From NCBI GenBank assembly GCA_034440155.1, contig JAWXBN010000090.1, positions 1-53,015 on the forward strand: DNA of 53,015 nt. Direction: 5' to 3'. This DNA is from Verrucomicrobiota bacterium. Lineage in GTDB: Bacteria; Verrucomicrobiota; Verrucomicrobiia; JAWXBN01. A program made the translations under genes and the position numbers. Below, piece by piece: positions 23,991 to 40,482 of the stretch. A model generated the notes under the pieces. It made no database searches, was not told the origin of the DNA, and saw nothing but the letters and a program-made list of their open reading frames with translations. The number at the start of each line of letters is the position of its first letter. Within the stretch, counting starts at the first letter, position 1.

Positions 23991-26159
23991 TTAGTAAGGT
24001 AATGGAAACCGGGAGGTTAATTCGCGTACTTTTCCGCGGATTTCTTTTAACTTTGGATCTTCGGCATTCCCCGTAGCCAATGCCTCGGAAATCAAGTCAC
24101 CTACCTGGTCAAATTCTTTTTCCTTAAACCCACGTGTGGTACAGGCCGGTGTCCCCAGACGGATTCCGCTGGCGACAAACGGGCTCTTTGTATCAAAAGG
24201 AATCGCATTTTTATTCACCGTGATTCCAGCTTGGTCGAGGATCGTTGAGGAATCTTTACCCGTCAACCCCTTGACAGAGACATCCACGAGGCAAAGATGG
24301 TTATCTGTCCCCCCGCTGACAATCCGGAATCCATTCTTCTGCATCCGGGCGGCCAGAGTCTTTGAGTTTTTCACCACTTGCTCTTGGTAAGTATTAAATG
24401 AGGGTTGTAATGCCTCATGGAAACAAACCGCTTTTGCGGCGATGACATGTTCCAATGGCCCCCCTTGGATTCCGGGGAATACCTGGGCATCGATTTCCTT
24501 TGCATACTTTTCCTTGCAAAGGATCAGGCCACTGCGCGGGCCACGGAGGGTTTTATGTGTGGTGGTCGTGACAAAATCCGCAAAGGGAACCGGAGAAGGA
24601 TGTACCCCGGCTGCCACCAAACCGGCAATATGCGCCATATCCACCATCAGAAGGGCTCCCACTTCTTGGGCTACTCGGGAGACCTTTTCAAAGTCAATGA
24701 TCCTAGGATAAGCAGAAGCCCCTACTGTGATCAGTTTTGGTTTATGCTCATGAGCAAATTGCTCCAGTGAATCATAATCAAGTAACTCATTATCCCTACG
24801 GACACCATAATGGACGACCTCATAAAAGCGTCCTGAAAAATTAGTTTTAAACCCGTGGGTCAAGTGACCGCCATGGGCCAGATCCATTGTCAAAATCTTG
24901 TCCCCAGGCTGCAAAAAGGCAAAATAGACAGCCATATTTGCGCCACTTCCGGAATGGGGCTGTACGTTGGCATGTTCCGCCCCGAAAAGTTTTTTGGCGC
25001 GGTTAATAGCAAGTTGCTCCACCTCATCGACAAATTCACAACCGCCATACCAACGTTTTTTAGGGTAACCTTCCGCATATTTATTGGTCAGTACGGATCC
25101 TTGGGCCTCCATCACCGCCGGACTGGTGAAATTCTCACTGGCAATCAGCTCGATATTCTCCTGTTGGCGTTCCCTCTCCTGCTCAATAAATTTCGCAATT
25201 TCAGGATCCACATGGCTCAAACGTAATGAAGTCTCCTCAATCTTGGAAACACGACGCTCATGGCGACCTCCTTCGAAATTTGTATTCAACCAGATATCCA
25301 CGATTTCCTTAGCCCTATCCGGCGAAGTCTCATCAGCAGAGAGGCAAATAACATTCGAGTTATTATGTTCACGGCTTAAACGGGCTGTCATGTCATCGTG
25401 GACCAAAGCGGCCCGCACCCCGGGGATTTTATTCGCCGAAATGGACATCCCGATGCCAGTTTTACAGACTAATATACCGCAATCAAAATTCTCATTAGAA
25501 ACCGATTCGGCGACTTGATGGGCAAAATCCGGATAATCCACTGAATCCTTGGAATGGGTGCCAAAGTCCTCAATATTAATATTATTATTTTTCAGGGTTT
25601 CCTTGATGGATTCCTTGAGCTCAAAACCGGCATGATCCGATCCGATAGCGATGCGCAATTTGCGTTGTAGTTCCTGTTCCATAGGCTTTTGTTTTTGTGA
25701 CTCCTCGATAAATTCTAAAATAGAAGATAAGGCTTTTTTAATTTCCTGGCAACAATCCATGTAAATTTCCAGCGGCATTCCGATCGGATCGACGATATCC
25801 CTCTCAAAGTCTTCGATATCCATGACAAACTCTTTGACCAAAAAAGTCTTCTCAGATGCAAACGGGAAGAGCATTTTAACCGCTTGGGCGTGTGACGAGG
25901 TCATGCAGAAGATATAATCGGCAAGCACAGCGATCTCCTCAGTCATATTCTGACTGCGGATATTGGAGATATTAATCCCTTCTTCACGACAGGCAATCAC
26001 CGAATATTGACTCGGCGGCTGGTTTGGCATCGCTCCCAAACCACATGAAATAACCTGAAAATCATCATGCCCAGCGGACTGGACAAGCTTTTCAAAAAGC
26101 CCTTCAGCCATTGGGCTGCGGCAGATATTACCTGTACATACAAAGACGACTTTTATCAT
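23991..26159 (-). CDS. Fused LMW protein phosphatase - ribose-5-phosphate isomerase B - serine hydroxymethyltransferase
   Basis: One uninterrupted frame of 722 residues with three complete enzymes. Residues 1-155 are a low-molecular-weight phosphatase of the YwlE/Wzb type: P-loop [10 protein letters not shown] (C8, R14) and general acid D124 in DIVDPIG. Residues 168-307 are Rpi[11 protein letters not shown] (D175, H176), catalytic C232 in [14 protein letters not shown] and end [13 protein letters not shown]. Residues 311-722 are [41 protein letters not shown] and the PLP lysine K536 in [11 protein letters not shown]. The phosphatase-RpiB junction has an internal Met (160) without a well-placed ribosome-binding site; the RpiB-SHMT junction has no start codon at all. 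In Bacillus the same three functions are separate neighbours (ywlE, rpiB, glyA), so this looks like a fused ancestral operon. All active sites seem intact. Confidence 0.93.
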
Positions 26160-26295
26160 GGAATATTACCCAGACTATAACACGCCCTATTTTTTTTCAA
26201 ACATTGATTCTGATATTCCTCTAAAACATAAAATCTCAATATTTGATTCTGAAAATAAAATTGACACGGCAATTTTTCTGCCGGATGCTACCACG

Positions 26296-26964
26296 ATGAA
26301 ACATCCGCTTAAACTTCAAGCATTTACATTAATTGAACTCCTTGTCGTGATCGCCATTATCGCTATATTGGCAGGCATTAGTTTTCCCGTTATCATGAGG
26401 ACAAAAATGAAGGGAATGATTGTTAAAAGTTCCTCGAACCTAAAGAATATCGGGGTAGCTTGTCGCTTATACACGAGTGATAATGATGGATTCTTCCCGG
26501 TCAGTGCCATCCCCGCCACTACCGCCGCCCGATCTGATTATAACCTCTTGATTCCTAACTATGCGAGTAAAGGAGTATTTCAAGCTCCTACAGATACGAC
26601 TGCATTAAATATCGCAAAAACTAATTCATCAGCCACCCTTGTATCAAATGAAAATAGTTATACTTATTTTTCAGGCTTGGATGTCATTGCTCTGTCCGGT
26701 GCTGTCAGCAGTTCAACAGACTCAAGTATTCCTCTTGCTTCAGAAAGGTTGAATCAAAAACCCTTGGTGAATACCAATGCCCAAGCCCTGACAACCACGA
26801 TTTTTAATGGAACGGGGGTGAACATATTAAAATCAGATGGTTCAGTCGCCTTCACTCCCGCCACAAATGCCCCTACGGCATCAGTCAAACTCTATCGGGA
26901 TATCACCGTGGCTGTCGGCATCACAAATTTGAATACCAACGCTGGCTGGAGGAATAATGAATAA
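26296..26964 (+). CDS. Type II/IV pseudopilin-like protein
   Basis: 222 residues from ATG 26296; the frame is open back to 26158, but the family N-terminus begins at MKHPLKLQA. The prepilin motif is clear: QA-FTLIELLVVIAIIAILAGISFP, with cleavage before Phe and Glu at +5, followed by the helical spine. The residue before the cleavage site is Ala rather than the usual Gly. The C-terminal domain is Thr/Ser/Ala/Asn-rich and contains ACRLYTSDNDGFFP, like the ADNDGFIP segment of the pseudopilin at 31870-32412. It would need a prepilin peptidase not found here. It is divergent from the triple fusion gene. Confidence 0.88.
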   Translation: MKHPLKLQAFTLIELLVVIAIIAILAGISFPVIMRTKMKGMIVKSSSNLKNIGVACRLYTSDNDGFFPVSAIPATTAARSDYNLLIPNYASKGVFQAPTDTTALNIAKTNSSATLVSNENSYTYFSGLDVIALSGAVSSSTDSSIPLASERLNQKPLVNTNAQALTTTIFNGTGVNILKSDGSVAFTPATNAPTASVKLYRDITVAVGITNLNTNAGWRNNE

Positions 26965-29778: not shown

Positions 29779-31200
29779 TTAGACAAATTGCATCTTCATT
29801 AAAAACTCAGCATTGGACTGTGTGGCACTGAGTTTCCCGAGCATATTGGTGTAAGCCTCCACGGCGGGCAAAGTTCCCATAGCTTTCCTCATCAGATTCA
29901 CACATCGTAACTCATCAGGGTGCAGTAATATCTCCTCCCTGCGGGTTCCAGACCGCGCAACATCCACAGCAGGGTAAATCCTCATATCCGAAAGGTCCCT
30001 GGAAAGGTAGAGCTCCATATTTCCCGTGCCCTTGAATTCCTCAAAAATCAATTCATCCGCCTTGCTCCCGGTATCGACGAGCGCAGTCGCAATGATAGTG
30101 AGACTCCCCCCCTCTTCCACATTCCTTGCACTCGAGAAAAACTTCCGGGGCCGCATCAATGCCTTTGCATCCACCCCGCCTGAGAGCACACGGCCATTAC
30201 TTGGCATCATATTATTATACGCCCTTGAAAGGCGTGTGATACTATCTAACATTATTAATACATGCTTTTTATTCTCCACCATTCGTTTGGCGCGTTCCAT
30301 AGCCAGTTCTGCCACTTGGATGTGACGGGCGGGATTCTCGTCAAAAGTCGATGCGATGATTTCAGCTTGTAGATTCCTCTCCATGTCGGTCACCTCTTCA
30401 GGGCGTTCATCGATCAAGAGGATAATCTGAACCAGCTCTGGATAATTTGCGGTGACCGCTGTGGAAATTTTCTGCATCAGGACGGTCTTTCCTGTCCTGG
30501 GGGGTGCGACGATTAATGATCTTTGACCCCGGCCAATGGGACAGAGGAGGTCGATTACCCGTGAAGATATCTCATGAGGGTCATGCTCCAAAATCAGACG
30601 TTCCTTGGGGAATTCAGCAGTCAATTGCTCAAAAGGCATCCGAAGGCGGTTCCCGTCAGGATTATTTCCATCGACAGCCTCGATTTTTAATAGCGCGAAA
30701 AATCGCTCATTATCTTTAGGCGGACGGATGTGACCGGTGATCTGGTCTCCTGTTCTTAAACCAAACCGCTTGATCTGCGAGGGGGAAATGTAAACATCCT
30801 CAGGACAGGGGAGATAATGGTACTTTGGGTAACGAAGAAAACCATAACCCTCTTGGGTGATTTCCACGATTCCCTCGGCGACCATATGCCCGTATTTCTC
30901 GGCATTTTTCTTTAAAATTTGAAAAACCAGTGCTTGGGTATCATTCGGATTAAAATCCTCCACCCCATAGTCCCGCGCCAGATTAAATAGATCGGGTGCT
31001 GCCATGGATTGAAGATCAGAGATATTCAGGTCGGTGCCGACCAGATCTTCACCTCGGAATTTCCGCCGGACAAAACGCCTTCCCTTTTTAAAATAGGGCC
31101 GGGCCACCTTCCCTTGGGGTTTGTCGACATGTTCACCCTGGCGGGGGGTTCCATTTTCAGCGGGATTTTGTGGTGTGGGATGTAGTGGGTCAGAAGTCAT
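29779..31200 (-). CDS. rho: Transcription termination factor Rho
   Basis: 473 residues. Rho is a hexameric RNA helicase that ends transcription. After a basic extension of about 60 residues rich in Pro, Lys and Arg, the N-terminal helix bundle (DLQSMAAPDLFNLARDYGV), the RNA-binding cold-shock-like domain (EGYGFLR, DVYISPSQIKRFGLRTGD) and the ATPase core (RGQRSLIVAPPRTGKTVLMQ, LIDERPEEVTDM, MLDSITRLSRAYN, LSGGVDAKAL) follow. The extra basic N-terminus is a known variable feature of Rho in several phyla. It lies immediately before coaE on the same strand. Confidence 0.98.
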   Translation of the reverse strand: MTSDPLHPTPQNPAENGTPRQGEHVDKPQGKVARPYFKKGRRFVRRKFRGEDLVGTDLNISDLQSMAAPDLFNLARDYGVEDFNPNDTQALVFQILKKNAEKYGHMVAEGIVEITQEGYGFLRYPKYHYLPCPEDVYISPSQIKRFGLRTGDQITGHIRPPKDNERFFALLKIEAVDGNNPDGNRLRMPFEQLTAEFPKERLILEHDPHEISSRVIDLLCPIGRGQRSLIVAPPRTGKTVLMQKISTAVTANYPELVQIILLIDERPEEVTDMERNLQAEIIASTFDENPARHIQVAELAMERAKRMVENKKHVLIMLDSITRLSRAYNNMMPSNGRVLSGGVDAKALMRPRKFFSSARNVEEGGSLTIIATALVDTGSKADELIFEEFKGTGNMELYLSRDLSDMRIYPAVDVARSGTRREEILLHPDELRCVNLMRKAMGTLPAVEAYTNMLGKLSATQSNAEFLMKMQFV

Positions 31201-31266: not shown

Positions 31267-31869
31267 TTATCGATCCGACAAGTTCAATTTTTCTAACAAA
31301 ATACATGTCTGACGATCCCTATGGCCGGTCGTGAAATTATTCCAAATAATAAAATCTGATTTTTCAGCTTTTATAGCCATTGGAATTTGCGCGTCAATAC
31401 GTAAAAGAGCCTCATTACGGGATAACTTGCGTTCATTGACCAATCGACCGACTTGGATTTCTGGTGAACAAACCACACTGACAATCATGTCAAATTCACC
31501 TTCGGCATGGGTTTCAAACAGGAGGGGGATTTCCACAAATACAGTTTGGCCCGGGTTTTTCCCTACAAATTCTGCAGCTTGTGTTTTCCAAATCCGTCGA
31601 ATTTCAGGATGTAGGATCCCATTTAAAACCCCCCTCTTTTCGCTGTCCCCAAATACTTGCCGGGACAGTTTTTCGCGTGAGATATTTCCGTTGTTATCAA
31701 TAATCTCGACACCGAATCTCTCAATGATTTTGGATGCGCAAACAGACGTTTTGAGGAGTAACCCGTGTCCAATCTGGTCAGTTAAAATAACGGAGTACCC
31801 TTTCCCCCTGATAAAACCAGCTACACTGGATTTTCCACATGCTATCCCGCCTGTTATGCCAACAAACAT
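31267..31869 (-). CDS. coaE: Dephospho-CoA kinase
   Basis: 200 residues. CoaE phosphorylates dephospho-CoA, the last step of coenzyme A synthesis. The P-loop is GITGGIACGKSSVAGF, followed by ILTDQIGHGLL and the VFVEIPLLFE and ERKLSRNEALLRIDAQ segments. The start ATG directly abuts the stop of the upstream pseudopilin gene with no gap, so translation is probably coupled across the end of the pilus-associated cluster. Rho lies 66 bases further. Confidence 0.95.
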   Translation of the reverse strand: MFVGITGGIACGKSSVAGFIRGKGYSVILTDQIGHGLLLKTSVCASKIIERFGVEIIDNNGNISREKLSRQVFGDSEKRGVLNGILHPEIRRIWKTQAAEFVGKNPGQTVFVEIPLLFETHAEGEFDMIVSVVCSPEIQVGRLVNERKLSRNEALLRIDAQIPMAIKAEKSDFIIWNNFTTGHRDRQTCILLEKLNLSDR

Positions 31870-32412
31870 TTATTCTAACACTATTTGACCATTACCTAAT
31901 AAATGATGGGCTTTCCCTTTATGCCAATTTTTTACCTCTGACATAAGATATAATGCACTCAGTGGAAAATCACCACCCTCTAATGTTTTACCGTCCAACC
32001 TCTGACCGCCTCCCCTGTATAGATAACTCGTTCCCAAATTGTAATCATAATAACCGAAGGATGGATATTTTTTATTTTTTGGTGATAAAAATATTTTATT
32101 CGGCACGTAAGCAACGAGGCAATAAGGTAAATCCAAGCGTCCATCTGGAAGTGTTGATTGTGGATCATCGACTATCAAATCACCATTTTCATCGAATTTT
32201 GCAATTGCCGGTATAAATCCATCGTTATCGGCGGCGTAAGCCAGAATACCGGTATAAATCGTTCGTAATTGGGTCAAGGCTGTCCCTCTATCCGCCATAT
32301 CCCGTACATTTTTGAAGAGGCTAAATGAGATTGTAGCAAGTACCGTAACAATCGCTAATACACATATTATCTCTATTAGCGTAAACCCTTTATTATGTTC
32401 ACGATAGGACAT
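31870..32412 (-). CDS. Type II/IV pseudopilin-like protein in the pilus cluster
   Basis: 180 residues. The prepilin motif KG-FTLIEIICVLAIVTVLATISF gives the classical Gly before the cleavage site and Glu at +5. The globular part contains TIYTGILAYAADNDGFIP and a YDYNLGTSYLYRGGG stretch rich in Tyr and Gly. It lies 3 bases after the Tyr-rich secreted protein gene and is probably cotranscribed with the Amuc_1098-1102-like genes upstream, making it a candidate pilin of that apparatus. The other pseudopilin (26296-26964) shares the DNDGF element. Confidence 0.87.
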   Translation of the reverse strand: MSYREHNKGFTLIEIICVLAIVTVLATISFSLFKNVRDMADRGTALTQLRTIYTGILAYAADNDGFIPAIAKFDENGDLIVDDPQSTLPDGRLDLPYCLVAYVPNKIFLSPKNKKYPSFGYYDYNLGTSYLYRGGGQRLDGKTLEGGDFPLSALYLMSEVKNWHKGKAHHLLGNGQIVLE

Positions 32413-32415
32413 ATA

Positions 32416-33573
32416 CTAAAATCTAAATCCATTGGAGGTATTATCAATAACATTTAATTTAATATTAACAGATACTAAGTTTGCAGTATAACTTCCAAAT
32501 CCTGCCTGCACTGTCACTGACCATGTACCTTTTGCGGGAACATTCAAAGCCAATAATGAACTATCCGGTATGAAGCTACCAAAGATTGGAATTTTTCCTA
32601 CTGAGTATATTGTCTGTTTTGCATTACTTTTAAAATTCAGCGAATGCGTATATGAAGCAGAACTAGTAGTAGCAAACCCTGACGTACCCCTATAAAAAGG
32701 GCGGAGTAATGAATAGGTATTTCCCTCTGGATCAGTAAGAACAATTGAAATACCATCCAAATCCCATGTGGTCTGCACAACCACTTTTACCTCCGCAGAA
32801 TACACAATACCATTATCATCTACATCCGCGCTTACAGTTGCGGGAAGATATCCATCAGAACTTCCATAAACATATTGATAATAATCAGTACCATATGAAT
32901 TATAATAGTAGATTGATGTGTTAGTGTATCCATAAAATGATGAAGTGCTCGTATTGGTTGTTGCCGCATTATTCACGACGTTCAGGTTAGTAGAGCCTGG
33001 GTATGTGTAGCTGTAATTTGTATTTCCATATTGGTCTACACTTGTATATGTTTCGGTAGAATTATATGTGATATTTGAAATAAGTGGTGGTGGCGTCGTA
33101 ATATCAACGTAAGTATATCCCGAATAATAATATGTGTAATTAGTGCCATCTTGCGTGTAACTGCTTGTGGTAGATGGATAAGAATAGTTATTTGTGTAAT
33201 ACTGGCTGAAATTAGAATTAGTCGTATAGGTGACATTATATGCCGCAGTCAGTGCTTGAGGCATATTTATCTTAGCATTTACGGCTCTTGTATTTACAAC
33301 TACACCACCGGACGAACTAAAACCATTGATCTGTCTCCTCTGAGTATCAATAAAATAATTTGTATTCCCAGTCCCTTGACTTACTAACGATGGTGTATTT
33401 GTTCCTGAATTTTGTCCTGTAATAGTAACCCCATTAGACGTGGTAGTTGCAGAATTTGTAATGGCAGTAGGGGGTATACTAGGAGTAGTCGATTGTGCGC
33501 TTAAAGGATTTGTAAGAATTAACGCGACTAATAATATTAAAAAAACACGCATAAGGGACTTTCCAACTTTCAT
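32416..33573 (-). CDS. Secreted Tyr/Thr/Asn-rich protein with P-domain-like C-terminus
   Basis: 385 residues. A signal peptide (MRVFLILLVALILTNPLSAQ within residues 8-27) is followed by a region of about 200 residues dominated by Thr, Asn, Ser and Tyr, with many YTYYY-, TNTS- and SYTY-like runs. Residues about 245-385 look like a proprotein-convertase P domain: DVDDNGIVYSAEVKVVVQTT, DLDGISIVLTDPEGNTYSLL, and GTWSVTVQAG near the end. P domains are beta-sandwiches that follow bacterial exoproteases. No protease domain is present. It sits between the secretin gene and a pseudopilin on the same strand, so it may be exported by, or build part of, the pilus-like machine. That role is inference from position. 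Confidence 0.78.
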   Translation of the reverse strand: MKVGKSLMRVFLILLVALILTNPLSAQSTTPSIPPTAITNSATTTSNGVTITGQNSGTNTPSLVSQGTGNTNYFIDTQRRQINGFSSSGGVVVNTRAVNAKINMPQALTAAYNVTYTTNSNFSQYYTNNYSYPSTTSSYTQDGTNYTYYYSGYTYVDITTPPPLISNITYNSTETYTSVDQYGNTNYSYTYPGSTNLNVVNNAATTNTSTSSFYGYTNTSIYYYNSYGTDYYQYVYGSSDGYLPATVSADVDDNGIVYSAEVKVVVQTTWDLDGISIVLTDPEGNTYSLLRPFYRGTSGFATTSSASYTHSLNFKSNAKQTIYSVGKIPIFGSFIPDSSLLALNVPAKGTWSVTVQAGFGSYTANLVSVNIKLNVIDNTSNGFRF

Positions 33574-33588
33574 AGAATTATGTCAATT

Positions 33589-35910
33589 CTATTTGTTTAA
33601 TGGCTGTCCAGAAGGATCCACCAATGATGCCGTGACAAAAATCGTCAGATTCTTTTTCAAACTCTGGTTGGTTTCGTTTTGGAATAACCTTCCGATTCCC
33701 GGGAGATCACCTAAGAATGCCACTTTATCATGGGTTTTTTGAATATCCTCACGGATCAGGCCACCTAATGCTACGGTTTCCCCGTCATAAACATAGACTT
33801 GTGTTTCGACTTTACGGACACTAAAAATAGGTTGATTGATCACATTTTCTGTCAATAACTCCCCGGTGGCCGCACGAATCGGACTACCATAGTTAATAAA
33901 ACCGTCAAATTCTGTCACTTCAGGGACCAGTGTTAGCTCAATGGTTCTCTTGTTTGCACCCACTGAAGGTGTCACGGTAAGAATCACACCCGTCTCGCGT
34001 GTGACAAAGGCTGTCGGTGTCGAGGGGGTTACGATTGCGGCTGAGACTGAATCACCCGTACCGGTAGGCACCTGAGGCCTTTCATATTCAGACGGATAAA
34101 TAAACTCACGGGTGATCCCCAGACGGGCCTGCTGTCCACTCTTTGTGGTTACGGATGGTGCTGAAAGCAAATCCACATTCTTTTTCTGTTGTAAAGCACG
34201 AATCACTACTTGGAACTGGGGATTTGTCAACACACCGGTAATCGCCAAAACAGGATCAGGTGCCACGGTTAACGCATTGCCTAAAAGTGAATCAATCGTT
34301 GAATTTTGAAGAGAATTTCTCCCATCTGCTGCAGAACCATTGGCATTTCTCAAACCTCCTGTGATCAAATTCCCCACAGAACCAACAGTACCAGCCCCAC
34401 CGACAGTTACTTTACCATTACCCACACCAATATTACCCAGAATCCAGTCAAAACCTAATTCCTTTAAGTCATTCTGGTTGAGTTCCACAAAACGCGCTTC
34501 AATTTGAATTTGAAAATTCTCTTCGTCGCCAATTCTCACAAGTTCGTCAATCAATTCCAGATTGGATGTTGTATTTACTACCAGTAATGTGGTCGGGCTA
34601 ATTAAACTCGCTGAGGCCCCTTCGGGGAATGTTACCCCCTTGGCTTCAAGGCTTTCACGTGCGCCACCTTGAGAAATCGTTGTCCCTGATGATACCCGTG
34701 CTGAATTCCCTGTGGTGGCAGGGCCAGTCGAAACCTCGGAAGTAATAAAACCAGCTGGAATTTTAAATTTACGGCGTTGTAAACTCTCATTTTCACCTGC
34801 ACCGGGCACGATCACTACAGCAACAGGATCAATCCTAAAACCAACATTGGCTCCTGTGGTAATAAAACGAAGGGCATCCCTCAGGGAAACATTTTGTAAA
34901 TCCAATGTTACTGGATTGGGTTGGACATCGGGAGGTAATTGCACTACAAAATTCACCCCTTTTTGGCCATCGGGAGATTTTGTATCTAATATTCTCGCCT
35001 GTTCTTGCATATATTTTACGGCTGATTGAAGGCTTGCATCCGTAAATTTCAAATTTGGAATTTTAATATCATTGAGTTTTTTCTCAATATCTGTGCCCAT
35101 AGACACGGGATCTGAATAGGTGGAATCACTGGGAGCAAAATTAGATTTTCTGCGATAATCTTGAGACCACTTATTTTTAACTTCCCAAGCTGCTTTTTCA
35201 TCAATCGTATCCTTGAGGACTTCTGCCGCCTTATACTTCTTTTGATAGACGGCTTCTAAACGTTTGGCAGCGGCTGTATTATCCTTATCAATCGAAAGAA
35301 TTTGCTCATAACTTTTAATCGCTTGGTCATATTGACCGGACTGGAAATAAGCATCACCATTTTTAAAAAGTGTGCTCACATCTTTTGATTGTGCCAAAAA
35401 TTCCGGACTAAGAGCCTGATTGATATTTTCGCGGTCAAATTGCCTTTTTTCAGCTAATTTTTTAGCTTTGATCTCTTCTTGTCCTAAAAGCGCGAATGCT
35501 TCCGCATTATTCGGATTATACTTGAGGGATTCCTTCAGATACTGGACGGCCAATTCAGGATCCCCGTCTTGGGATGCTTTTACAGCCCTCATGTAGGCTA
35601 CCGAACTCAACCCATTCTGCACATTGGCATAGGCTACGCTATTTGCCGGAGAAGGATCACCTAAGAGTGATTTCGCTGCATTAAAGGCTTCTTCAGCCTT
35701 TTCGAGTTCACCCCCATTAAGGTAAAGATAACCATTAGTAATTAATTGATCGGCTTGTTTGAGCTCAGCTTGTCTTTGTTTAACTTCCTCAGCAGAAAGT
35801 TTATTAACCCCCGTGGGCCCAGCATAAGTGCCCGCCATTAAATTCATTTTTACTGAATTTAATAAAAATAAAATTCCTAAAATGTAAATGACCCTCAACA
35901 TGACTTTCAT
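33589..35910 (-). CDS. Amuc_1098-family secretin (pilus outer membrane protein)
   Basis: 773 residues from ATG 35910, preceded by TAGGACTAAAT; an in-frame ATG at 35931 overlapping the upstream stop is also possible. The signal segment VMLRVIYILGILFLLNSVKM leads to tetratricopeptide-like repeats over about 45-240 (ELEKAEEAFNAAKSLLGD, PELAVQYLKESLKYNPNNAE, QYDQAIKSYEQILSIDKDN). Two short N-like domains follow (VTLDLQNVSLRDALRF; SLISPTTLLVVNTTSNLELI), then the secretin core with VPEVTEFDGFINYG and VYDGETVALGGLIRED plus KVAFLGDLPGIGRLF. Secretins form the outer membrane ring for pili or type II secretion. This layout, and the four genes before it, match the Akkermansia pilus-like cluster. Confidence 0.95.
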   Translation of the reverse strand: MKVMLRVIYILGILFLLNSVKMNLMAGTYAGPTGVNKLSAEEVKQRQAELKQADQLITNGYLYLNGGELEKAEEAFNAAKSLLGDPSPANSVAYANVQNGLSSVAYMRAVKASQDGDPELAVQYLKESLKYNPNNAEAFALLGQEEIKAKKLAEKRQFDRENINQALSPEFLAQSKDVSTLFKNGDAYFQSGQYDQAIKSYEQILSIDKDNTAAAKRLEAVYQKKYKAAEVLKDTIDEKAAWEVKNKWSQDYRRKSNFAPSDSTYSDPVSMGTDIEKKLNDIKIPNLKFTDASLQSAVKYMQEQARILDTKSPDGQKGVNFVVQLPPDVQPNPVTLDLQNVSLRDALRFITTGANVGFRIDPVAVVIVPGAGENESLQRRKFKIPAGFITSEVSTGPATTGNSARVSSGTTISQGGARESLEAKGVTFPEGASASLISPTTLLVVNTTSNLELIDELVRIGDEENFQIQIEARFVELNQNDLKELGFDWILGNIGVGNGKVTVGGAGTVGSVGNLITGGLRNANGSAADGRNSLQNSTIDSLLGNALTVAPDPVLAITGVLTNPQFQVVIRALQQKKNVDLLSAPSVTTKSGQQARLGITREFIYPSEYERPQVPTGTGDSVSAAIVTPSTPTAFVTRETGVILTVTPSVGANKRTIELTLVPEVTEFDGFINYGSPIRAATGELLTENVINQPIFSVRKVETQVYVYDGETVALGGLIREDIQKTHDKVAFLGDLPGIGRLFQNETNQSLKKNLTIFVTASLVDPSGQPLNK

Positions 35911-35927
35911 ATTTAGTCCTATAATAT

Positions 35928-36950
35928 TCATTTTTTCGTGATATCTATCTCAAACCGTTGATCTTCAGCATTTTGCTTTTGAACACTAACTTTATCAGAT
36001 TGAATGTCAATAACTTTGTATTCGTTTTCCCTAATTTTAAAAACTTCACCTACTTTGACATTATAAGAGTTCTTTTCATCTTTCTGTGCTAAAGGGAAGT
36101 CAATGATGGCCGAAATAATACTTGCTTGTTTACGGTCACCTAATATCAAGGTAATTTCCAAACCATCGTCTCTTTTGACCTTAAGCTCAGAAAGGTCCAC
36201 CATTTCGTTACCTCCCGTTGAGGGATTTATCCGTTTTTCAGCCTTTTTCTCAAAAGCCATAATCGAGTATTCACCATCCGCACCCAGGCTTTTTTCCCCT
36301 AATTTCAAGAATTCGGTCTTCACCTTTCCAGCCTTGTCAGAGCGGTTCACCTGGAATGTTTTGACACCGCCTGTTTCGTTATATTCTTTAAAAAGAATAT
36401 AAAAATCTTCTTTGATATATTCTTTCCCGACAAGCTTTGTAGCCCAATCCGGCCTACTATCGGCTGAAACAGGAGAGGTCTCCTGCTTACCCTCGGTTAC
36501 TTTAGAAAACCAAATATACTCATCGTACGTGGTAAATCCGTCCTTATCCGGATCATCACTACCGACTCCCTCCACCTTCGAAAGGGCATATTGGTCTAAC
36601 CACCAAAACGGGATTCCGTCGATCGTCTCATTTTTTTGATCCACCCACTCGGCTTTTCCTGACTCCGGATTATATTTTATTTGCCCTTTGGGCCCGAAAA
36701 CTTGATGGCCAATCTGGTCATCACGAACCCAAGGTTTTGGATTCTTCAAGTCTTCAAAAATTTTCACAGTCGGAGCCGCATTCCAATTACTGACTCTTCC
36801 CCCCTTTAATTGAGTAGGGTCCATGACTGGTCCGAGATTTTTACTGAACTCCCCGTAACTCATAAAGGTCATGATACAAATCACGATTAGCAGCAGCATG
36901 GCCGCCGCCAATGCGACGGGTGCCTTCTCTGATTTAAAATCAATTTTCAA
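35928..36950 (-). CDS. Amuc_1099-family pilus-like system protein
   Basis: 340 residues. One membrane helix near residues 14-32 (ALAAAMLLLIVICIMTFM) with a short cytoplasmic start, and a large periplasmic part containing a KDGFTTYDEYIWFSK-like stretch (about 140-155) and late beta-rich segments (NVKVGEVFKIRENEYKVIDI). It resembles an inner-membrane alignment protein but has no motif outside its own verrucomicrobial family. The gene overlaps the next upstream one by 4 bases, as all members of this cluster nearly do. Assignment rests on size, topology and position between the Amuc_1100-like and secretin genes. Confidence 0.85.
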   Translation of the reverse strand: MKIDFKSEKAPVALAAAMLLLIVICIMTFMSYGEFSKNLGPVMDPTQLKGGRVSNWNAAPTVKIFEDLKNPKPWVRDDQIGHQVFGPKGQIKYNPESGKAEWVDQKNETIDGIPFWWLDQYALSKVEGVGSDDPDKDGFTTYDEYIWFSKVTEGKQETSPVSADSRPDWATKLVGKEYIKEDFYILFKEYNETGGVKTFQVNRSDKAGKVKTEFLKLGEKSLGADGEYSIMAFEKKAEKRINPSTGGNEMVDLSELKVKRDDGLEITLILGDRKQASIISAIIDFPLAQKDEKNSYNVKVGEVFKIRENEYKVIDIQSDKVSVQKQNAEDQRFEIDITKK

Positions 36951-37846
36951 GGTTGAACCTCGCTTTTAATGGGTTCCGTACCCGGATAATTGAATATTAA
37001 AAGCTCAAAGCGAACTGTGACATTGATTTTATCTAAGCCGAAAATGATCCGAGGTGCAGAACTCTTCTTCTGAGTTTCCTCGATTTCTTCACTGGTCATG
37101 TCCTTTAATGTGGGAATTTTGAGATTTTGGTTCTTGGCGATCACGTCCTTTACCACAAAAAGGTTCCTTGATTTGGCCATCTGATTAACCAACTCTCTCA
37201 GGGAAGTAATATCCCCGACAAATGAAACTTCAAAGGGAAGGCGCATCAGGCCCAGTTCGCTATCCTCAGTAATTTTCAGGTTCATGGAACGGGCGCTCTG
37301 GGTGGGTTTTTCATTGGGTAGTCCGGCCCTGTCTATGGACTTTAATTCTTCAATCCCATCAATATTCAAAACCATCGGGACAAGGGCTTTTAAGGCACCT
37401 AATTGTTTATAAAGGATATCCGTGTTTGAATCATCAGGCAACACGCCCCCGTACATTTCAAAACTAAACCCGTAATCTTTGGGTATTTGGACTTCCGCTG
37501 TTTTTGCCATGGTGGTCATTTCTTGGCGGAATTCGACAATTTCATTACGCAGGTCAATCGGCTTGATATTATCTTTAGGAATTGCCGGATTATTAAAGTA
37601 ATCAAGGAATTGTTGTTTCGCTGAGGCAATCTCCTTTTGGCTATTTTGGACTAATTTAATATTTTCCGCTGATGGAAATGGTTTTGACTCGAGGAGAGGA
37701 TTGAGTTGTCCCCGTTTAATCTCAATATTTCCTTCTGCTTCCTGTAATCCCTCCGATGAAGAAGAGATCAAATATAAACCGATCAACCCGAGCACCAATG
37801 TCACGGATGTGATGACGATAATCGTGATGTTATCTTTGAATTTCAC
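36947..37846 (-). CDS. Amuc_1100-family pilus-like protein
   Basis: 299 residues. An N-terminal membrane helix (IIVITSVTLVLGLIGLYLIS) is followed by a coiled-coil-prone segment (EAEGNIEIKRGQLNPLLE, KLVQNSQKEIASAKQQ) and a periplasmic alpha-beta domain (SMNLKITEDSELGLMRLPF). The plan is that of a PilO-like protein. In Akkermansia the corresponding protein is well known for its effect on host immune signalling, but nothing here shows a host association. It overlaps both neighbours by 4 bases and is therefore almost certainly co-translated with them. Confidence 0.87.
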   Translation of the reverse strand: MKFKDNITIIVITSVTLVLGLIGLYLISSSSEGLQEAEGNIEIKRGQLNPLLESKPFPSAENIKLVQNSQKEIASAKQQFLDYFNNPAIPKDNIKPIDLRNEIVEFRQEMTTMAKTAEVQIPKDYGFSFEMYGGVLPDDSNTDILYKQLGALKALVPMVLNIDGIEELKSIDRAGLPNEKPTQSARSMNLKITEDSELGLMRLPFEVSFVGDITSLRELVNQMAKSRNLFVVKDVIAKNQNLKIPTLKDMTSEEIEETQKKSSAPRIIFGLDKINVTVRFELLIFNYPGTEPIKSEVQP

Positions 37847-39621
37847 TGTTTTAATACTTCACTTTGATTTTGATTCAAAAAAGCCTCGACGGGTTTGATT
37901 CCCACGCGGATCTGGAATGAATAAACAAAATCCCCTTGTTTGGGAGTCTCCAGCTTTACAATCGCCTTATTCACATCAGGAACCACAAAATAAGGCGATT
38001 CCTTCAGCCTTTCGACAAACTGGTACACCACATCGGATTTCCCCTGTCCTATCTCTTTTTCATTGTCGACTTTGCAGAGACCTTCAATCATGTAAACTGT
38101 AGCTGCCAATTGTCTTTCAGCTTCATTCTTGTTTTTGTTCAAAGGCTTCTGTTTCTTGTCATCTTTGGCAGGTTGTGAGCCCAAAGGAATCGTCGCATTA
38201 GTCGGTTCAAATGTCGTCACCCACATATTCTGGTGGATCCTCTCGGTCATATCGCGGGCTAACTGGGAAAAATAATCTTTTTGGGAGATGATCCCAGTGA
38301 TTTTTTTAATCTCATTCTCCATCTCCACCTGTTTTTTTAATTCTTTAGTGATCGTATCCTTGTTTGATTGATACTGATCGACCACAGCATTGATATCTCC
38401 CAGATTCTTCTGGACTCTTTCTTCTTTCCGGTAAATCGCAAACCAAGCGATATAAATGGATAATAAAATCGCTGTCGCCGTGGCAATATACTGGGGCAAC
38501 CGCAGTCGCGCAGTCCTGCGCGAAACGATAGAAGGCGGTTCCAGATTTATCTCCACAGTTCCTTGACCTGATTGCCGGAGCGCCAAGCCGGTTAATTCTG
38601 AGAGGGAATGGACAGAGGAAGAAATATTTTCCTCACTAATCCGGGGTGATACTTTGATATTTTTGAGGGGATTCAGGTACTCCACCTCCACATTGAGTTT
38701 TTCTTTAAAAAACTGTGGCGTGTACGTCATGATACTACTGCCACCACAGAGATATAAACGATCCGCTGATTTTCCCCCTTGTTGTGTGCGGTAGAAATTC
38801 GTTGACCGTGTGATCTCGGCATGGAGACGGGTCATCCCTTGGCGGATTAATTTACTGATCCGGGCGACATCCGGATCTTTGGGATCTTCATAGGCACCCC
38901 CTAACCCCACAAATCCCTTACTCCTTTTGAGTTTCTCGGCCTCTGCGAAAGGAACCTGGAATTCCGTCGCAATACTCTGGGTCAAATTATTCCCCCCTAC
39001 CGGGATGGAACGGCAGAAAAAACGGTCTTTTTCGATAAAAATAAGATTTGTGGTCCTCGCCCCGATATCGACAATCAAACTACAGCCTGATGCCAGACCG
39101 TAACTATTCCGGAATGAATTATAGGTCGCCATCGGGGCCACATCCGTGAGGATGGGTGTCAACCCGATATGGGTCATCATCGCGTAATTTTCCTCAATGA
39201 CATCGCTTTTAACCGCAAAAAGGGCGACTTCATATTCCACACTCCCAGGGGGTGATATAATCTGGTAATCCCAAACAACTTGGTCAATCGGGAAAGGCAC
39301 ATTCTGCTGCGCTTCGTATTTGATGATTTGCTTGAGTTTTTCCGGGCGATCTATGGGTGGAAGCTTGATGAATTTCGGGAAAACAGATTGCCCTGAGATC
39401 GTGTAAGCGATCTTTTTATGTTTGATGTGGCGTTCCTTAAAGATTTTCGCCAAAGAATCCTGGACGAGCGGGAGCGGATTGATTTCTTTTGACGGATCTA
39501 GTTCCAAATCCGTAAAAAAGAAATTCTCAAGGACCAAAATTCCCCCTTTATCTTGGGAAAATTCAGCTACCTTCAGCGTATAAGAGCCTATGTCAATGGC
39601 AACAATCGATGTATTGGACAT
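37843..39621 (-). CDS. Amuc_1101-family PilM-like protein (PilM-PilN fusion plan)
   Basis: 592 residues. Residues 1-350 are an actin-like PilM ATPase domain: IVAIDIGSYTLKVAEFSQD, IDRPEKLKQIIKYEAQQNVPFP and SLIVDIGARTTNLIFIEKD, with RLYLCGGSSIM. A membrane helix follows near 380-398 (YIATATAILLSIYIAWFAIY), then a coiled coil and a periplasmic PilN-like domain. Fusion of a PilM-like domain to a membrane-anchored PilN-like part makes it the inner-membrane platform of the pilus-like machine. No PilB/PilT ATPase or PilC platform gene occurs in the window, so those must be elsewhere. Confidence 0.93.
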   Translation of the reverse strand: MSNTSIVAIDIGSYTLKVAEFSQDKGGILVLENFFFTDLELDPSKEINPLPLVQDSLAKIFKERHIKHKKIAYTISGQSVFPKFIKLPPIDRPEKLKQIIKYEAQQNVPFPIDQVVWDYQIISPPGSVEYEVALFAVKSDVIEENYAMMTHIGLTPILTDVAPMATYNSFRNSYGLASGCSLIVDIGARTTNLIFIEKDRFFCRSIPVGGNNLTQSIATEFQVPFAEAEKLKRSKGFVGLGGAYEDPKDPDVARISKLIRQGMTRLHAEITRSTNFYRTQQGGKSADRLYLCGGSSIMTYTPQFFKEKLNVEVEYLNPLKNIKVSPRISEENISSSVHSLSELTGLALRQSGQGTVEINLEPPSIVSRRTARLRLPQYIATATAILLSIYIAWFAIYRKEERVQKNLGDINAVVDQYQSNKDTITKELKKQVEMENEIKKITGIISQKDYFSQLARDMTERIHQNMWVTTFEPTNATIPLGSQPAKDDKKQKPLNKNKNEAERQLAATVYMIEGLCKVDNEKEIGQGKSDVVYQFVERLKESPYFVVPDVNKAIVKLETPKQGDFVYSFQIRVGIKPVEAFLNQNQSEVLKQ

Positions 39622-39638
39622 TTTAAGCGATAAACTTT

Positions 39639-40301
39639 TTATTCTTTAATCATTTCATACGTTCCCCACCAAGATTCATTCCAAGGGGTTTTTGTCTTCT
39701 TTAAAAGTACTCCGGAGGTTGTGGAAATGGCACTTTTCCAATCAATATTTTTTAAGAGTGCTTTATCGGTACTATAAGCATCTTTCTTTTTTCCCCCGGC
39801 GGAAATCTCTACATATACAAAGGCTTTTGTATTCGACCTGAAGGCTGAACTCCCCCCGTAACGTTTAACAAGATTCGGATGAATATACACAGAGGCATAG
39901 TGGGGCGCACCATCATAAACATTCAAGTAAACCACTTCCGTGCTGAAAAATGAATAAGAGTCATACCATTCCTTTCCTTTGGGTTTGGTTACATCATCTA
40001 TTCCCATAACAAAGTTAAATTGAACTTCCGGTGTGAAAGCTTCTGCTGGAGTGGCCGGTTTTGTGTCGCGTTTTGGATGAACCTCATATTCCACAAAAAT
40101 TTCTATCCAATTTTTATCAATACTGGTAATCGCTGGCCGTCCGGGAGTTCCTTCATTGTTATTTGGTAACTCGTTAATCTCCACTTTCTTAATTTTAAAA
40201 TCCACACCCATCGGTTCATTATCCTGTGCAATAAGGCTCAGTTGGGCCCCTTGAATTACGAAAATCATTATGAAAATTTTAAATATTGCTTTTATGGACA
40301 T
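39639..40301 (-). CDS. Amuc_1102-family pilus-like protein
   Basis: 220 residues from ATG 40301, preceded by AAAGGAAG; an in-frame start at 40334 is less likely. A signal peptide (IFKIFIMIFVIQGAQLSLIA) is followed by a beta-rich secreted domain: VDFKIKKVEINELP, DKNWIEIFVEYEVHPK, EVVYLNVYDGAPHYASVYIHPNL split over residues about 120-160, and AFVYVEISAGGKK. It has no known catalytic residue. It is the first gene of the cluster, so the AT-rich 180-base gap upstream (40302-40482), shared with divergent gatC, should contain the cluster promoter. Confidence 0.85.
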   Translation of the reverse strand: MSIKAIFKIFIMIFVIQGAQLSLIAQDNEPMGVDFKIKKVEINELPNNNEGTPGRPAITSIDKNWIEIFVEYEVHPKRDTKPATPAEAFTPEVQFNFVMGIDDVTKPKGKEWYDSYSFFSTEVVYLNVYDGAPHYASVYIHPNLVKRYGGSSAFRSNTKAFVYVEISAGGKKKDAYSTDKALLKNIDWKSAISTTSGVLLKKTKTPWNESWWGTYEMIKE

Positions 40302-40482
40302 GGACTTCCTTTCTATTTCTATGTAGAAACTCACATAAACCTACGTATTGTGAGGCCTTCGGTCAACTAAATAAGATTTTTTAACTTGCTCAATTTGGTC
40401 TTTTTTCCTCGTAAATGAATTTTCGACTATCTCAATCTTAATCTTGCCCCCTTGCCATGAAAAAGCTATTTACCATAAGCTT

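Follow-up and report, generated by a model that had tools for sequence, protein, structure and literature searches.

A prepilin-like gene and a P-domain protein gene behind the secretin of a divergent Amuc_1098-1102 (MUL2) type cluster: a probable accessory module in Verrucomicrobiota

Amuc_1100 and the gene cluster to which it belongs have been studied for how they affect the metabolism and immunity of the host and for a part in glycan attachment, and the published Amuc_1098-1102 cluster names no classical prepilin gene. On a 53,015 nucleotide contig from a Verrucomicrobiota bacterium (this whole stretch of DNA is called the window here) a cluster of this type is followed, directly behind its secretin gene, by two further genes encoding a secreted protein and a prepilin-like protein, which raises the question of whether the pair belongs to the machine and what the machine would then assemble or export. 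The reading we favour, at a probability of roughly 55%, is that the locus encodes a MUL2-type machine with a two-gene accessory module, a (pseudo)pilin and a P-domain protein exported by way of a secretin-based fibre. The machine itself is already known; no description of such a conserved accessory pair was found within the limited set of literature that could be searched.

Five machine genes and their neighbours

The five-gene cluster, now called MUL2, is known from Akkermansia muciniphila (PMC5332112), and a part in glycan attachment has been proposed for it. For Akkermansiaceae, a 2026 paper shows it in synteny with genes for a secretion channel, dephospho-CoA kinase and Rho (PMC13174399). 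Five minus-strand genes of the window, spanning 33589-40301, match the NCBIfam profiles of the Amuc_1102, 1101, 1100, 1099 and 1098 families in that order (Table 1), which upholds the identity proposed in the first-pass annotation; its positions, strand and gaps for all seven genes are also right. Scores for the 1099 and 1102 homologues lie over the curated NCBIfam cut-offs and those for 1098, 1100 and 1101 lie under them in spite of very small E-values, as would fit a divergent relative. The Amuc_1102 family profile matches the Amuc_1102 structure in the PDB (7dsz, E 3e-57), and the Amuc_1100 family profile matches the Amuc_1100 structures 6lad, 6kny and 6laf (best E 4e-26).

Table 1. Features of the locus, in order along the minus strand (positions in the window).
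Feature	Coordinates	Strand	Evidence or remark
Amuc_1102 (MUL2A) homologue, secreted	39639..40301	-	NF042424 E 4e-18, over cut-off
Amuc_1101 homologue	37843..39621	-	NF045709 E 1e-161, below cut-off; Pfam PilM_2 E 6e-44
Amuc_1100 homologue	36947..37846	-	NF038287 E 4e-34, below curated cut-off
Amuc_1099 homologue with EF-hand-like loop	35928..36950	-	NF042425 E 1e-18, over cut-off
Amuc_1098 homologue, outer-membrane secretin, N-terminal TPR	33589..35931	-	NF042912 E 1e-183, below cut-off; Pfam Secretin E 5e-36
Extra gene 1, 385-aa secreted protein	32416..33573	-	Signal peptide; stretch rich in Thr, Tyr, Ser and Asn; P-domain at the C-terminus
P-domain of extra gene 1	32416..32850	-	BLASTP to S8 protease P-domain; profile match to relatives' proteins
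Extra gene 2, 180-aa prepilin-like protein	31870..32412	-	Pfam N_methyl E 4.5e-7
coaE, conserved neighbour, 0 gap to pilin	31267..31869	-	Pfam CoaE E 1e-42
rho, conserved neighbour	29779..31200	-	Matched as Rho in the order secretin-coaE-rho

Like the Akkermansia cluster, the window carries the five homologues in the same order, with dephospho-CoA kinase and rho downstream of the secretin; it differs in the divergence of its proteins (three of five under the NCBIfam cut-offs) and in the two extra genes between secretin and coaE. The arrangement also resembles pilMNOPQ, the alignment subcomplex operon of type IVa pili, in having a PilM-like protein near the start, two membrane-anchored proteins and a secretin last. 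The 1101 homologue, which matches PilM structures in the PDB, consists of a PilM-like domain, a transmembrane segment and a C-terminal region that occupies the place of PilN and, from this position, may be PilN-like, so that PilM-like and PilN-like parts appear fused. Two further differences from pilMNOPQ are the additional Amuc_1102 gene and the 1100 and 1099 homologues, neither of which has a sequence match to PilO or PilP in Pfam or the PDB. An observation apart concerns the 1099 homologue, which contains a canonical EF-hand-like loop (DPDKDGFTTYDE, 36519-36554, minus strand); 63 of the 82 distinct proteins of the Amuc_1099 family show this pattern, as against 4 of 1329 ORFs of comparable length outside it, which suggests calcium binding in this family.

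Of the parts of a type IV pilus system, a PilM-like protein and a secretin are present here, and the motor, platform and peptidase families are encoded elsewhere in the genome. No PilB (T2SSE), PilC (T2SSF) or PilD (Peptidase_A24) family member was detected on this contig, as had been claimed for the window; T2SSE occurs on contigs C45, C56, C93 and C110 among others, T2SSF on C93, C103 and C105, and Peptidase_A24 on C115, the single PilD-type peptidase found.

The 1102 homologue is likely the first gene of its operon because the next gene upstream runs divergently, and its start at 40301 is preferred to a longer GTG start at 40334 because AGGAAG lies just upstream of 40301. The 1099 and 1098 genes overlap by 4 bases, 15 bases separate the secretin gene from that of the secreted protein, 3 bases separate the latter from the pilin gene, and the pilin gene abuts coaE. 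Neither the gaps between secretin, secreted protein and pilin nor that before coaE holds a terminator-like site on the minus strand, and RNA folds around the first two gaps (secretin/secreted protein and secreted protein/pilin) are not stronger than those of shuffled sequences. The first-pass proposal of one transcript for machine and pair gains from the short gaps and from the lack of a terminator-like site, and these make joint transcription plausible only.

The two genes between secretin and coaE

The second extra gene encodes a protein with the leader MSYREHNKG/FTLIE, a type III (prepilin) leader in which Gly-1, Phe+1 and Glu+5 are all present. Its N_methyl motif bears out the earlier call of a pseudopilin. 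The protein is a member of a large, class-wide family. Another prepilin-type protein is encoded apart from the cluster, at 26158-26964 on the plus strand (N_methyl E 6e-7, weak DUF1559).

The first extra gene had been described as encoding a Tyr/Thr/Asn-rich secreted protein, and this description proved accurate: behind a signal peptide, residues 27-245 comprise 19% Thr, 14% Tyr, 13% Ser and 12% Asn. The C-terminal P-domain was absent from that description. When isolated, this domain scores 18.0 bits for Pfam P_proprotein, just under the gathering cut-off of 21. In BLASTP it shares 29% identity over 122 residues (E 6e-10) with an S8 protease, within a domain that itself scores 40.6 bits for P_proprotein. 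Among 384 class genomes the isolated domain found only two matches besides itself, the P-domains of one S8 protease (E 1.6e-8) and one M6 protease, both confirmed by Pfam. We assign it as a putative proprotein-convertase P-domain by sequence homology, not by Pfam threshold. Searched at full length against 57 genomes, the 385-aa protein found no relative. A P-domain would have a galactose-binding-like beta-sandwich fold. AlphaFold predictions made from the single sequence without an alignment were poor, both for the complete protein and for the isolated domain, whose low-confidence model is mostly beta (pLDDT 55), and Foldseek returned no significant fold match. Pfam detects no peptidase or other catalytic domain in the protein, and neither a lipobox nor a peptidoglycan-binding domain was seen.

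What these two proteins are bears on the main rival to a minor pilin with an exported partner, namely that a type II secretion-like machine secretes the P-domain protein as its cargo, the pilin being part of a short periplasmic pseudopilus, with no surface pilus. The secretin also gives GspD-like matches, the N-terminus of the pilin is similar to GspG and PilA alike, and P-domains in these genomes sit on secreted proteases. We nevertheless regard cargo secretion of this kind as unlikely: PilM-like proteins typically belong to type IV pili, not to type II secretion, and the secreted protein carries no catalytic domain in Pfam.

Recurrence and descent of the pair

Synteny was counted over 157 secretin loci (some of them duplicates) with at least 1.2 kb of downstream sequence. 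The first recognised gene 3' of the secretin is coaE at 77 loci, an exonuclease at 17, a prepilin-like gene at 8 and rho at 3; at 52 it is none of these. That only 8 of 157 loci are pilin-first, against 77 with coaE, counts against reading the pair as a module. The eight are the window, G017, G044, G001, G042, G051 (twice) and L085, the last of which was left out as a module, with other genes standing between its secretin and pilin. Secretin-coaE-rho is the commonest order in named Verrucomicrobiota genomes and sampled class-mates, and the slot behind the secretin may be empty or hold an exonuclease-like gene, a second secretin or the pair. Because in most relatives this slot holds coaE or some other gene and no pair, the pair is an optional module in a variable slot before coaE, not a core part of the cluster.

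Five genomes (G017, G044, G001, G035, G026) belong to one family, f2, and G042 and G051 represent two others. Three of the f2 genomes (G017, G044, G001) have secretin, one secreted protein and pilin in the same order as the window, and beyond the pair no coaE is seen in that lineage. G035 has the same pair on contig C68, and its secretin gene runs up to the very end of contig C2, which leaves any linkage out of view; G026 lacks the pair. The pair in G044 and G001, and the arrangement in G051, were found by profile searches of all ORFs and are missed by greedy longest-ORF calls. In the G042 and G051 families the secretin is followed by an unrelated secreted protein and a short pilin, which we rejected as orthologues: the pilins are not the best matches in their own genomes and the secreted proteins have no P-domain.

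Other contents of the slot were also recorded. Tandem Amuc_1098 secretins, frequent in other families too, are followed in G051 (L047, L145) and G015 (L057) by a 225-246 aa secreted protein unrelated to the P-domain protein, and in G051 a short pilin comes after it. A 5'-3' exonuclease-like gene stands directly behind the secretin in several families (L051, L053, L048 and other loci), in the slot that the pair takes here. Short full-length pilins belonging to a different clade are encoded outside the secretin cluster, beside a conserved protein of ~190 aa and ABC transporter genes (L243 in G188, L258 in G051).

Descent was assessed for each member of the pair. Three f2 pilins were made into a profile that left the window out. 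This profile matches the window pilin along its whole length with E 9e-19 among 12,841 ORFs, and has it as the best match in its own genome by a small margin (67.3 bits vs 63.6 for the next pilin); some pilins of other loci outscore it. Trees were built with the nearest other pilins because pilins form a large family. A first tree, containing duplicate rows of two sequences and two very long branches, did not recover the window and f2 pilins as a clade, and its clade test was discarded, with duplicate copies of two rows lying on both sides. With duplicates and the two long branches taken out, a second tree placed the window pilin and four f2 pilins in one clade among 56 near pilins (support 94/93, 91% of 200 bootstrap trees), and their clustering was matched by 0 of 500 shuffles, which gives moderate support to a common clade of the five pair pilins. 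For the secreted proteins, a profile of the window P-domain and those of the two proteases matches the f2 proteins by hhalign with E 1.1e-6; taken alone, the G044 protein gives 2.2e-8 and the G035 protein 0.03, no clear match. For G051 and G042, whose secreted proteins are unrelated, the values are 0.37 and 0.18.

The earlier proposal linking the two extra genes to the machine thus survived the synteny test, with the ordered pair behind the secretin in G017, G044 and G001 and the pilins in one clade. In a PilM tree the window stands isolated on a long branch, grouping with neither f2 nor G042/G051, and the order secretin, secreted protein, pilin needs at least three changes on this tree; either an old arrangement that was lost on many occasions or transfer of the module could account for this. 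A second rival takes the two genes for passengers in the variable slot, with no functional tie to the machine. The changing contents of the slot, the pair's absence from most genomes, G026 of f2 included, and the abundance of pilin genes in the class would all suit it; we consider it improbable, given the same order, pilin clade and partner domain in two distant lineages, one of them without coaE beyond the pair. Since the same pair, pilin clade and P-domain recur and most loci lack them, the pair appears to be an accessory module, conserved yet sporadic in occurrence, that is added to a known machine, and it probably works with the machine rather than merely adjoining it.

Proposed working and meaning

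On the accessory-module reading, a MUL2-type envelope machine arranged as a pilM(N)-O-P-Q operon would be served by PilB/PilC-type motor proteins encoded elsewhere. The prepilin-type protein would be cleaved by the single PilD-type peptidase, also encoded elsewhere, and would most likely serve the machine as a minor pilin or an initiating pseudopilin. The P-domain protein would be exported by Sec, would most likely leave through or ride on the secretin-based fibre, and would be displayed or released outside the cell, where it may act in adhesion or as cargo. Only very faint odds attach to its being instead a periplasmic or outer-membrane accessory of the secretin (an assembly or gating factor) that is not exported: its gene directly follows that of the secretin and its signal peptide takes it across the inner membrane, whereas neither lipobox nor peptidoglycan-binding domain marks it for such a place and a long Thr/Tyr/Ser/Asn-rich stretch would be more usual in a surface-exposed protein.

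Type IV pili include sets of minor pilins with PilY1-type tip adhesins, and the window likewise has a prepilin gene beside that of a secreted non-pilin protein. It differs from those sets in having a P-domain in place of the PilY1 propeller and one pilin only. More tentatively, the Amuc_1098-1102 machine of deep Verrucomicrobiota lineages may have a prepilin and a P-domain protein (tip or cargo) dedicated to it and encoded in the same operon, and a similar unit may sit elsewhere in, for example, Akkermansia genomes.

A prepilin and a P-domain protein behind the secretin provide two concrete candidates for the product or export of the machine, and named homologues to seek in tractable relatives. 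If both are indeed dedicated to it, they would reveal what an otherwise pilin-less cluster assembles and exports.
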